A stretch of 64,000 nucleotides of DNA from Pirellulales bacterium (GTDB taxonomy: Bacteria; Planctomycetota; Planctomycetia; Pirellulales; JAICIG01), in NCBI GenBank assembly GCA_035533075.1, contig DATLUO010000018.1, forward strand, positions 1 to 64,000, given 5' to 3'. The translations under genes were made by a program, and so were the position numbers. Of the stretch, positions 2,075 through 7,025 are shown one piece after another. The notes under the pieces are model-generated. The model did no database searches and was not told the DNA's origin. It saw only the letters and a list, made by a program, of their open reading frames with translations. Numbering within the stretch: position 1 is the stretch's first letter; each line of letters begins with the position of its first letter.

Positions 2075-3831
2075 ATGAGCGTGTCCGTGTCGCACAGATG
2101 CGTTCTTGCGATATTGTGCGGTATGCACTTGGTGCTTCTTATCGGGGCGGCGACAAGCGAGGGCCCGACGCGACCGGAGCCCGCCCATCTTGCCGCGGGC
2201 AACAGCCATTGGCGGTTCGCCGACTTCAGCCTCTATCGCGTCAACCCACCGCTGGTCCGCATGGTTGCGGCGCTGCCAGTTCTTCTGGCCGGCACAAGAG
2301 ACGACTGGTCGTCGTTCAGCACGTCGTCCAATTCGCGAGCGGAGTTTGCCGTCGGCAGAGACTTTGTCGCGGCCAATGGTCCGCGAACGCTGAGGCTCAT
2401 GATTCTGGCGCGAATGGCTTGCATCCCTTTTTGCCTCGTCGGCGCTTACATCTGCTATTGCTGGGGAGCGAGCTCTACGGCGGCACGCCGGGATTGGTTG
2501 CGACGGCGCTTTGGTGTTTTTGCCCAATCGTATTGGGGCACGGAGCGCTCGTCACGCCGGATGTGGCGGCCGCCAGCATGGGCGTCGCCGCATGCTATCT
2601 GTTTTGGCGCTGGCTGGGCGAGCCGACGTGGTCTTGGGCTCTCGCGGCCGGTGGGGGACTGGGCCTGGCGGAGTTGACCAAGTTCACCTGGCTGATTCTG
2701 TTCGCGGCCTGGCCGCTGACCGCCCTGATTGTAGCAGCGATCCGGTCTTTCAGCGGGTTGCGGGCCGCCGGCAAAAGCCCAACCGACGCCGCGATGATTG
2801 CGACGTTTCAGCGGCCGGTTTCGACGGCGGCGCAGCTCGCAGCAATGTTATCGCTGGCCGTGTTCGTCATCAACGTCGGCTATGGATTCAGCGGCTCGTG
2901 TGGGCGCCTTGGCGATCAGCGTTTCGTCAGCCGTCTGTTCAAGGGTTCGGAGGAAGGCCGCGACGAGCGCGATTACGGCCGCCATAACCGTTTCGCGGGC
3001 ACCTGGCTGAAGTCGGCGCGCATTCCACTGCCGGGCGATTACGTGCTCGGCATCGACGTGCAGCGGCGCGACTTCGAAGCCGCCATGCCGACGTTCTTCC
3101 GCGGCGCTTGGCGCGAGTCGGCGCCCTGGTACGCATACTTATACGGCCTGGCGATCAAGCTGCCGCTGGGAACCTTGTGCGTATTGATCCTGGCCGCGGT
3201 TGACCGCCTTGTGCGGCGCGGCGGCGCCCGCGATGAATTCGTGCTGCTGTTTCCGGCATTGGTGCTGCTGGCAGTGGCATGCGGCCACACCGGGTTGAAC
3301 AGCCAGGTGCGATACGTTTTGCCCGCCTTGCCGTTCCTCTTCATCTGGGCCGCCAAATCGGCGCGCGGCTTCGCAGTCGGGCGCCGCCGTATCGCCTGGC
3401 TTGCCGCGTTCGCGCTGGCGTGGTCCGTCGCGGCGACGCTTTATAACCATCCGCATCACCTCTCGTACTTCAATGAATTGTGCCGCTGGCCGAGAACCGC
3501 TCCGCCGCCGCTCCTCGACAGCAACCTCGATTGGGGCCAGGATCTCGTGTACTTGCGCGAATGGTCGAAACGCCACCCGGAGACGCGACCCTTGCGAGTG
3601 GCGTGCTATGCCAGCTTCGAACCCGCCGACCTTGGAATTGACTGCTTGCCGGCCGCCGACGTTTGCGATGGTCAGCCGGGCGAAAACCAGCCTCCCGGTG
3701 GCTGGTATGCCTTGAGCCTCGGAGAATTGTGGGGCAGGGGTGGCCGCTTTGCCTATTTCCGCCGCCTCGAACCGGTCGCCGTGGTGGGAACGACGATCCA
3801 CATCTACCACCTCACCCGCGACGAGAAGTGA
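2075..3831 (+). CDS. GT39/ArnT-like membrane glycosyltransferase, broken by a frameshift
   Basis: Polytopic membrane protein of the PMT/ArnT-like glycosyltransferase type, which transfers a sugar from a polyprenyl phosphate donor at the membrane. The N-terminal half (from ATG 2075) carries HWRFADFSLYRVNPPLVRM, the NPPL-containing first loop typical of this group. The C-terminal half carries many helices and DSNLDWGQDLVYLREW near residue 475. The two halves lie in different frames. The first is read to about 2464 (ICYCWG) and the second resumes at about 2467 (SELYGGTPGLVATALW). The switch falls in a GGGG run at 2463-2466, and one extra G would restore a continuous protein of about 585 residues. 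Either the gene is inactivated or one base was lost in sequencing. The alternative upstream GTG at 2051 adds eight residues. Confidence 0.7.
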
Positions 3832-4257: not shown

Positions 4258-5226
4258 TCACACCTCGACGGCGGCAAATCTTGGCACGACGGGCGAAACG
4301 TAACCCAGGGGCTTCACCGCCAGCAGCGGCCGCTGGCTGGTGTGCAAGATGTTTTCGGCCGTGTTGCCAATCAATAGCCCGGCCACGCCCGCACGGCCCA
4401 ACGTGCCCATCACGATCAAACCCGCGTCGATCTGCTCGGCTGTGGCCAGCGTGCGGGGCACGACTTCGCCCCACTCCGCGTGCAGCGCCGGTTCGACCGG
4501 CAGGGCCGACTCTTTCACAAACGTTTGCAGTCGCGCGACCGACTCGTGACGCCCCCGCTGGCGGGCCAGGTCGAGATCGTCTTCGGGCATGAAATCGAGA
4601 TAGTACGAATGTTCCGGCGCGAAAACGTGCAGCACGTGCAGCTCGGCATGAAACTGCGCGGCCAGGGCCGCGGCCAGCCGCAACGACTCGTGGCCCACAT
4701 CCGAGAAGTCGATCGGCGCCAAGATGGCGTCCAGCGTGCTTTTTGCCTCCGGCTTGACGACCCACACCGGGCAAGGACACTTGCGGACCAGCTTCGACGA
4801 GGTGCTGCCGACCAACATCCTGGAAATGGCCGAGCGGCCCCGCGTGCCCACCATCACCAGGTCGTGCCCTTCCTCGAGGACGGCATGGATGATCTCGATG
4901 AAAGGCGTCCCCCACAGCGTCTGGCAACTGATCTCGACGCCTTGGCCGCGATAGGGCTCCACGGCCTCGCGCAAGTGCTGCTCGGCGGTGGCCTGCAATT
5001 GCTCTTCGATTTCGGCGACGCCCTCCGACGGCTGCCATGCGGCCATGATTGCATCCGGCCCCGGCGAAAAAGCGGCCGAGCCTTCCACCTGCGGAATGAC
5101 GTGCATCACCGTGACCGCCGCGCCGAGGCGCTTCGCCATTGTCACGGCTTGGGCCAAAGCGACGGACGCCGTCTCGGAGAAATCAATCGGAACAAGAATC
5201 TTGTGAAAGAAGGACGTCGCATTCAC
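4258..5226 (-). CDS. Universal stress protein with two USP domains
   Basis: 322-residue cytoplasmic protein made of two tandem universal stress domains (about 1-155 and 160-322). Each has the start pattern KILVPIDFSE / DAILAPIDFSD. The ATP-binding signature G-x2-G-x9-G-S/N is intact in both halves: GTRGRSAISRMLVGS in the first and GTLGRAGVAGLLIGN in the second. This predicts an ATP-binding USP that protects or signals under stress. I chose GTG at 5226 because GGAGGT lies 6-7 bp upstream; the longer frame from 5262 would add twelve residues across that site. It is a single gene, convergent with the glycosyltransferase upstream. Confidence 0.9.
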   Translation of the reverse strand: MNATSFFHKILVPIDFSETASVALAQAVTMAKRLGAAVTVMHVIPQVEGSAAFSPGPDAIMAAWQPSEGVAEIEEQLQATAEQHLREAVEPYRGQGVEISCQTLWGTPFIEIIHAVLEEGHDLVMVGTRGRSAISRMLVGSTSSKLVRKCPCPVWVVKPEAKSTLDAILAPIDFSDVGHESLRLAAALAAQFHAELHVLHVFAPEHSYYLDFMPEDDLDLARQRGRHESVARLQTFVKESALPVEPALHAEWGEVVPRTLATAEQIDAGLIVMGTLGRAGVAGLLIGNTAENILHTSQRPLLAVKPLGYVSPVVPRFAAVEV

Positions 5227-5371: not shown

Positions 5372-5860
5372 ATGGCAGTACAAGCAATTGCGATGGCGAA
5401 CGTCCAGACGTATTTGAACCGCATCGATCAGTTGTACGCCGACGTGCGGAATTGGATGGCGGCGTTGGAACCAAGTGCTCGGTTTTCTGAATCCGAAATC
5501 GAGCTCGCGGAGCAAGCAACGGGAGCCTACAAGGCGAAGCGCCTGGAAATCACGCGACCAGCTCGGCATTCGCTGAGCCTCATTCCGCGCGGGCGCTACA
5601 TGGTCGGAGCGGAAGGGCGGGTCGACGTGCATGGTTGGTTGGGGCGTGAAATCTTGGTGTGGGTGCGAGCCGATGCACCGGCGCTCGGCTTTCGATTCAT
5701 GGAGGGAAACGGCGGAGCGCCGGAGGAACTCTATGGGCCTCCCATGTTTCCGGGGGTCGCGGAGGGCTGGGCATGGGACGACGAGGCTGGCGGAGAACTG
5801 CTGCATCTCGACCTGACCGTCTTCCGGGACCGGATTCTGAATAGCATCGGTGATGCCTAA
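5372..5860 (+). CDS. Hypothetical protein paired with a HEPN-like gene
   Basis: 162 residues, not recognised. The N-terminal 55 residues look helical (YLNRIDQLYADVRNWM). The middle has a beta-rich patch, SLIPRGRYMVGAEGRVDVHG, typical of small soluble globular domains. No signal peptide, membrane segment or catalytic motif is visible. AGAGGTGG lies a few bases upstream of the ATG. The 3' end overlaps the next gene by a few codons, so translation is probably coupled, and the overlap is the best clue to function: the partner carries a HEPN ribonuclease motif. It may be the antitoxin or specificity partner of that protein; this is inference only. Confidence 0.75.
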   Translation: MAVQAIAMANVQTYLNRIDQLYADVRNWMAALEPSARFSESEIELAEQATGAYKAKRLEITRPARHSLSLIPRGRYMVGAEGRVDVHGWLGREILVWVRADAPALGFRFMEGNGGAPEELYGPPMFPGVAEGWAWDDEAGGELLHLDLTVFRDRILNSIGDA

Positions 5861-6380
5861 TCCGCTCGAACCAATCTGGGATGCACACCAAACGGCCGGG
5901 GCGGCCCTTAAGGTTGTAACACGTTGCGTGAAGGTTGCTGGAATTGACCGCGCCAGGGCGTTTTCAAATACGCTTTTCCGCGGTATGACGGATCAGCAGT
6001 GCCTTGACTTGATTGATACTGCACAGGCAGAGATCGATGACTCGGCGGTTTTGTCTCTGTACGCGAGTTTCGAGGCGATTTTGCGGCAGCACGTCGTGCA
6101 GCAGGCGTATCACCTTCACGGAGCGCAACACCCGACACAGGACTTCGGCGTCGCGCTCGCCGGCTTGTTCTCGGAAAGTTGCGATCGCATACGGATGGAT
6201 GATCTGGCGAACTTGTTCGTTTCGGCGGCTGGCCAGCCGTTGGTCGCCCAGGTCGGCAACATACGCACCTACCGGCACTGGCTCGCCCACGGGCGTGGGT
6301 GGACGCAACCGCCGACGGTCACGCCGAGGTTTGCCTACCAGACGCTGACGGCATTCTTGCAGGCGTCCAGACTCATTTGA
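5853..6380 (+). CDS. HEPN-like protein with Rx4H motif
   Basis: About 175 residues, all-helical in appearance. The central helix AVLSLYASFEAILRQHVVQ and the later RTYRHWLAHGRGW resemble HEPN domains. RHWLAH gives the R-x4-H motif that forms the active site of HEPN ribonucleases in toxins and defence proteins. The family identification rests on this motif and the helical layout, so it is moderate. ATG 5853 sits inside the end of the preceding gene (overlap of 8 bp), a typical arrangement for two-gene toxin-antitoxin or effector modules. The next gene, 48 bp downstream, is an Imm21-like immunity protein, which adds to the accessory character of the locus. Confidence 0.65.
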   Translation: MPNPLEPIWDAHQTAGAALKVVTRCVKVAGIDRARAFSNTLFRGMTDQQCLDLIDTAQAEIDDSAVLSLYASFEAILRQHVVQQAYHLHGAQHPTQDFGVALAGLFSESCDRIRMDDLANLFVSAAGQPLVAQVGNIRTYRHWLAHGRGWTQPPTVTPRFAYQTLTAFLQASRLI

Positions 6381-6428
6381 ACGACCCTTAGTCGAACGCC
6401 CACTCGCTCACCCGACTAGATCAATCCG

Positions 6429-7025
6429 ATGGCTCAACAGTCGATATGCGGGATTTGGTTTGTCAACGACGGCGGCCCTTTAATCGTTTTGCCTCGCGAG
6501 TTGCTTGGCTACTGGCAAGGCGATACGGCCGTTCCGGGGCGCGGTGGATCTTCTGTCGGCTCAGACTACAAGAGGGCATGCGAAGCAGTTCACCCTGCGG
6601 CGCTCCTCACCGTTGGACCGGGCTTCGGGCTCGTAATCGGCGCTCAGGATCATATCGGAACCGCGAACTGGCTGGTTCTCACTGACCAGCCGGTCGCCGC
6701 ATTGGTGGGGTGGAGTTATGGCGATGATGACTCGGAGGCCATGGTCATCGAACTGCTTCGCAAAGAGGCTTTGCCTTGGCGACGGCTACCATGCACGATT
6801 GCGCTATCACACGGCGACGTCGTGTTGTTTCATGCAGCTTCTCGGGGCGAAGAGTTACGGGAGCTTTCTTCAGCGGACGGCTATGCGGTCATCGGTGGCT
6901 GCGTTCCATTACGGTTAGATCCGGGCCACTACATGCTGGAAGTGCTGGAGGCCGGGGGCAATCTCGATCACGACAGTTTCGGCTGCGTCATCTGTCGGTG
7001 GGTTCACGTCCAGCGGAGCGACTAA
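6429..7025 (+). CDS. Imm21-like immunity protein
   Basis: 198 residues. The N-terminus reads GIWFVNDGGPLIVLPRELLGYW, and the following YKRACEAV plus a Gly-rich VGPGFGLVIG stretch match the arrangement of the Imm21 family of immunity proteins as I remember it. Those proteins neutralise a cognate polymorphic toxin by binding it in the cytoplasm. No matching toxin C-terminal domain is visible beside it, so it may be an orphan immunity gene, or it may act with the HEPN pair just upstream. Orphan immunity genes are common in bacteria. The C-terminal half (120-198) is less characteristic. Confidence 0.6.
   Translation: MAQQSICGIWFVNDGGPLIVLPRELLGYWQGDTAVPGRGGSSVGSDYKRACEAVHPAALLTVGPGFGLVIGAQDHIGTANWLVLTDQPVAALVGWSYGDDDSEAMVIELLRKEALPWRRLPCTIALSHGDVVLFHAASRGEELRELSSADGYAVIGGCVPLRLDPGHYMLEVLEAGGNLDHDSFGCVICRWVHVQRSD

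Follow-up and report, generated by a model that had tools for sequence, protein, structure and literature searches.

Two overlapping genes in the window (the whole stretch of 64,000 nucleotides analysed here), designated A and B, in our judgement probably constitute a mobile two-gene module of the toxin-antitoxin or abortive-infection type, in which a HEPN ribonuclease encoded by gene B would be held inactive by the product of gene A. Among the readings that we have weighed, a two-gene module with an antitoxin family not hitherto described is the most likely. The open reading frames that a first-pass annotation had described are present on the forward strand (Table 1) and their overlap is confirmed, amounting to 11 bases when counted from the GTG start of gene B and to 8 bases from an alternative ATG at position 5853, just after the GTG. 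The neighbours on either side of genes A, B and C encode a universal stress protein and a radical SAM enzyme and are read in the opposite direction, and no Rfam model matches the window between positions 5000 and 7200. Autoregulation is usual in type II toxin-antitoxin systems; just upstream of gene A there is no clear operator-like palindrome, the only candidate being a single 8-nt pair standing 43 nt apart, so that autoregulation of this kind is not indicated.

Table 1. Positions of the genes and motifs discussed in the text
Feature	Position	Strand	Description
Gene A	5372-5860	+	162 aa; predicted antitoxin or partner of the HEPN gene
Gene B	5850-6380	+	176 aa; predicted ribonuclease toxin of HEPN type; GTG start at 5850
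E75-A-I-L-R79 codons (gene B)	6072-6086	+	Ex3[KR] acidic motif
RHWLAH codons (gene B residues 142-147)	6273-6290	+	Rx4-H motif, expected active site
Gene C, Imm21 family	6429-7025	+	198 aa; PF15589 match; outside the conserved module

One question then is to what class of proteins the product of gene B belongs. On alignment of 27 relatives, E75, R142, W144, A146 and H147 are found to be invariant, while the residue following the arginine is polar (H in 19 sequences, D in seven and N in one) and residue 79 is an arginine in 21 of the 27. The Rx4-H motif, the polar next residue and, in many HEPN families, an Ex3[KR] motif are listed among the HEPN features in PMC3710099. Gene B is also under selection at the protein level, as indicated by comparison with a 72%-identical planctomycete relative (locus L003), which yields a dN of 0.185 and a dS of 2.0, with 25, 21 and 73 differences at the first, second and third codon positions, respectively, over 134 codons; that is, the selection is purifying.

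The AlphaFold2 model of gene B (pLDDT 87.4) is all-alpha in the manner of the HEPN fold. Its first 16 matches in VIA are without exception HEPN-fold entries (Z 6.4-8.9), of which the best is HepT, from crystals of HEPN-MNT toxin-antitoxin complexes (Z 8.9, 119 aligned residues, rmsd 3.8), and others are HI0074, YutE, a Thermus protein and MtlR/YggD; the entries 1jog, 1ylm, 1wwp and 3c8g are HEPN structures in Table 1 of PMC3710099. Cas13b, sacsin and Csm6 occupy lower rows. Foldseek with the same model against the PDB gave no significant match (0 at E<=0.001), and a sequence search of the PDB returned weak and unrelated matches only. Since the packing common to helical proteins can by itself yield a Z of 8.9, the assignment of gene B to HEPN rests on the motif combined with the unbroken series of HEPN rows. 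Both features accord with the first-pass annotation, which had called the protein HEPN-like on account of RHWLAH and had made its proposal depend on conservation of the motif in homologues: Rx4-H is retained in 27 of 27.

No family of Pfam, NCBIfam or PADLOC was matched by gene B. Likewise, none of the 27 members rises above the curated cut-off of any Pfam HEPN model (best E-values 0.063-0.16), those touched below cut-off, by one or two members at E 0.06-0.16, being HEPN_MAE_28990, HEPN_RiboL-PSP and HEPN_Apea, and the PHROGs gave nothing below E 0.02 when compared with the 27 members of the B family and 25 of the A family. As the HEPN models of Pfam are reached only below cut-off, the B proteins most plausibly make up a new family of HEPN proteins, so that gene B, judged by its motif and predicted fold, is a protein of the HEPN superfamily, though of no catalogued HEPN family.

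The normal partner of HEPN toxins is an MNT nucleotidyltransferase, and gene A was considered in this light; the candidate was rejected, there being no such Pfam match and the predicted fold being frataxin-like. In the alignment of 25 A sequences P72 and W135 are invariant, E47, Y53, G82, R83 and D85 recur in 23 or more, a conserved stretch reads P-x-G...G-R-V-D, and the middle region varies strongly in both length and sequence. This alignment leaves out the A frame of L033, which is interrupted. The frame in question, from a planctomycete (L033, 1951-2349 on the minus strand), looks broken near its end and is open in its close relative L035, so that either the assembly is at fault or the partner gene has decayed.

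The model of gene A (pLDDT 91.6) consists of a helix, nine strands and a further helix. Its first six VIA matches are all frataxins (Z 8.5-9.7), headed by the frataxin/CyaY entry 4hs5 (Z 9.7, rmsd 2.8, 98 aligned residues, 11% identity) and followed by Med17. Foldseek against the PDB found no significant match to the model (0 at E<=0.001), nor did a BFVD fold search with gene A. None of the 25 members matches the frataxin models of Pfam, and comparison of A with the PDB by sequence gave no relative among solved structures, the few hits being weak and unrelated. We therefore place moderate trust in a frataxin-like fold for the predicted structure, by which no iron binding, Fe-S role or other iron chemistry is implied. 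The suggestion that the first gene would be a new kind of partner stands insofar as gene A belongs to no family in Pfam, NCBIfam, PADLOC or PHROGs.

The association of the two genes extends well beyond this locus. Of 23 loci in planctomycetes and IMG/VR contigs, 22 have gene A immediately upstream of gene B in the same orientation, and the remaining one is cut, with B at the contig end; two adjacent genes with the partner first is a feature of type II and type VII toxin-antitoxin systems. Locus L003 begins inside B, so that its A cannot be judged. The distance matrices of A and B correlate (r 0.79 over 24 pairs, with none of 10000 permutations as high), which shows joint inheritance and not physical contact. 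The genes overlap by 1-14 bases in 21 of 25 pairs, lengths that are soft because unannotated start codons were chosen by hand, partly for closeness to the neighbouring gene; in three annotated plasmid pairs the records themselves give overlaps of 8, 11 and 14 bases.

A profile search of 392 Planctomycetota genomes yielded 20 matches to A, distributed over 15 genomes. Gene B is the neighbour in 12 cases, a deleted remnant of B in one (C47), a diverged gene with RN[SLF]LVH in four and a gene with RCEIAH in one. The diverged partners share the E, R, L and H columns with B on alignment and match no HEPN model of Pfam; their putative grouping with HEPN rests on the motif. Overall, an Rx4-H gene of HEPN type or its remnant adjoins 17 of the 20, with one further possible case and two having none. 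The expectation that the first gene should not occur without a HEPN gene is thus borne out for the large majority of matches and fails for the two lone copies. The 22 loci and the plasmid records show A and B kept together much more often than chance would allow.

Some of the other relatives of A deserve separate description. One copy without a HEPN neighbour (genome G346; L049, 1471-1953, plus strand) stands upstream of an HNH-type gene (2278-3078, plus strand; PF01844 below cut-off), which perhaps is a different toxin partner of A. The downstream genes of the copy at C121, which also has no HEPN neighbour, were read by eye as belonging to sugar metabolism. About 100 additional N-terminal residues are present in the A-like genes of contig C205 in genome G000 (L059, 1087-1878, plus strand), where a diverged RNFLVH gene of HEPN type follows, and of C121 (L058, 1135-1863, plus strand), where none does.

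The searches for A and B covered Planctomycetota, plasmids, phages and IMG/VR. Within the 392 Planctomycetota genomes B gave 13 matches in 11 genomes, or in 10 once the weak row L037 is dropped; this match was excluded from the B sequences analysed (E 3e-4, an in-frame TGA and flanks in which the A profile finds nothing). A further 11 IMG/VR contigs carry B. In the genome from which the window derives another A-B pair occurs at C250, and C47 carries a third copy of A, beside which B survives as the deleted remnant, while in the nearest genome compared (G001) the stretch adjoining an 86%-identical radical SAM gene holds none of A, B or C; the stress-protein neighbour, used as the query for an empty site, returned paralogues only. 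The second copy in the same genome and the vacant site in G001 together imply a patchy and mobile distribution.

The pair is likewise found on plasmids. Both genes are present in four of four matching Cupriavidus and Burkholderia plasmid records (one from Cupriavidus pauculus and three from Burkholderia glumae), and all 18 Klebsiella and Raoultella plasmid records match the DNA of the pair, 15 of them containing it complete at a single site and three matching in two partial places; among the Klebsiella plasmids are some of ColRNAI type, 3.7-4.7 kb in size. On two Burkholderia glumae plasmids (L011 and L012) a Phd/VapC toxin-antitoxin pair lies about 3-4 kb from A-B, and on the first of these an error-prone DNA polymerase, a Y-family polymerase and imuA occur within about 6 kb downstream. 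Among the IMG/VR contigs, L025 has the pair upstream of genes for an HNH endonuclease, the small and large terminase subunits and a portal protein, L026 has a small terminase gene about 4 kb away, and CI-like repressors are encoded near the pair in L017 and L018. The records of sequenced phages gave no match to the pair with two different B queries, the Klebsiella pair was not matched in complete E. coli genomes, and a single-sequence scan of IMG/VR with one A protein recovered only its own contig. The occurrence of the pair in distant bacteria, on plasmids and in prophages suggests a mobile system of the toxin-antitoxin or phage-defence kind; genes of toxin-antitoxin or abortive-infection systems characteristically show such a distribution, mobile and patchy, with the motif preserved.

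How, then, might such a module operate? The product of gene B would be a metal-independent HEPN ribonuclease, whose residues R142 and H147, helped by E75, would cut RNA and thereby bring growth to a stop. From a transcript presumably common to both genes A would be made first and would keep B inactive, most likely by direct binding, because its predicted fold is not that of an MNT-type enzyme. Loss or titration of A would then release B, the putative triggers being plasmid loss in the case of the small plasmids and, for copies residing in prophages, infection by a phage.

The main rival to this scheme inverts the role of the partner, in that A would recognise a phage component and switch on the HEPN ribonuclease, B by itself remaining silent as in an abortive-infection sensor and effector. 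The location of the pair in prophages, close to genes for CI-like repressors or terminase, would suit such an arrangement, as would the variable middle region of A, which could correspond to a sensor surface; however, carriage on plasmids of 3.7-4.7 kb fits addiction at least as well, and the copy at C47, which has kept A and lost most of B, is the expected leftover of a free antitoxin. We consider activation by A unlikely as a general account, while both readings could hold in different carriers. Considerably less probable is a role in metabolism or RNA handling, with B as a regulator or RNA processor, A as its structural subunit and neither acting in a toxin system. HEPN proteins with roles outside biological conflict are described in PMC3710099, MtlR and Las1 being examples, but the patchy presence of B (11 of 392 genomes), the carriage by plasmids and prophages and the strictly kept catalytic motif all speak against such a function here.

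The third gene of the locus is a genuine member of the Imm21 family, as had been supposed at first pass: it passes the Pfam cut-off (PF15589, 48.5 bits against 30.7) and holds, as WQG and YKRAC, the WxG and YxxxC residues given for Imm21 in PMC3482391, which also reports the family in heterogeneous polyimmunity loci. The first-pass remark that no cognate toxin lies nearby was checked for the universal stress protein, the radical SAM enzyme and three other neighbouring genes. PADLOC and NCBIfam found nothing in the three proteins A, B and C. That all three genes form a single immunity cassette against some toxin, as might be suggested by the common orientation of B and gene C and the 48 bases that separate the end of B from the start of C, is highly improbable, given that no Imm21 relative stands beside the other A-B loci examined, neither A nor B beside the other Imm21 loci (within short flanks of about 1.5 kb), and only the window's own genome has both, Imm21 and B each being matched in 11 of the 392 (B in 10 without the weak row). 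The grouping of A-B with the Imm21 gene was consequently abandoned, and gene C is regarded as an unrelated neighbour.

Returning to the reading of A-B as a toxin and its antitoxin, few partner proteins of HEPN ribonucleases are to our knowledge known, and we know of no frataxin fold that serves as an antitoxin. The open-access literature searched yielded no report of a frataxin-fold antitoxin with HEPN or of a frataxin-like fold in connection with toxins, and none naming the six plasmid protein accessions of the A-B pair; none of the papers that mention CyaY together with antitoxins appeared to treat such a system. A partner other than MNT, possibly frataxin-like, would represent a new way of restraining a HEPN enzyme, and such a family would account for the so far uncharacterised gene pairs that ColRNAI plasmids of Klebsiella, and also prophages, carry. 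The more specific proposition that a frataxin-fold antitoxin clamping a HEPN ribonuclease defines a new class of HEPN module, the family having captured at least two HEPN lineages (RHWLAHG and RN[SLF]LVH), we rate as evenly poised. HEPN ribonucleases are described as indispensable to many systems of the toxin-antitoxin, abortive-infection, restriction and CRISPR kinds, and HEPN toxins with MNT, RnlB or ParA-like partners have been described (PMC3710099; for further literature on HEPN and antitoxins see PMC10714953).

In comparison with known systems, the Imm21 family (PF15589) touches this locus through the Pfam score of gene C, with no connection to A or B found. Frataxin/CyaY resembles gene A in its predicted fold and differs from it in the low sequence identity and in the pairing of gene A with a HEPN gene and its longer sheet region. 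Similarly, MAE_18760 HEPN with its ParA/Soj-like ATPase, RiboL-PSP-HEPN and ApeA are, like B, HEPN families proposed for conflict systems, whereas their partners or fusions, unlike A, are a ParA-like ATPase, ParB, an endoRNase L-PSP or restriction-modification genes (PMC3710099, Table 1). RNase LS (RnlA-RnlB and LsoA-LsoB) shares with A-B the combination of a HEPN ribonuclease and a protein antitoxin other than MNT (PMC3710099, Table 1). The Pfam matches at E<=1 of the 27 B sequences and the 25 A sequences include neither an RnlA nor an RnlB model. RnlA is also about twice the size of the gene B product. Finally, whereas gene A is no MNT nucleotidyltransferase by sequence or predicted fold, the HEPN-MNT systems (HepT-MntA, type VII) have in common with A-B a two-gene unit in which an Rx4-H HEPN toxin is encoded second, after its partner, and their toxin HepT is the closest solved fold to gene B.
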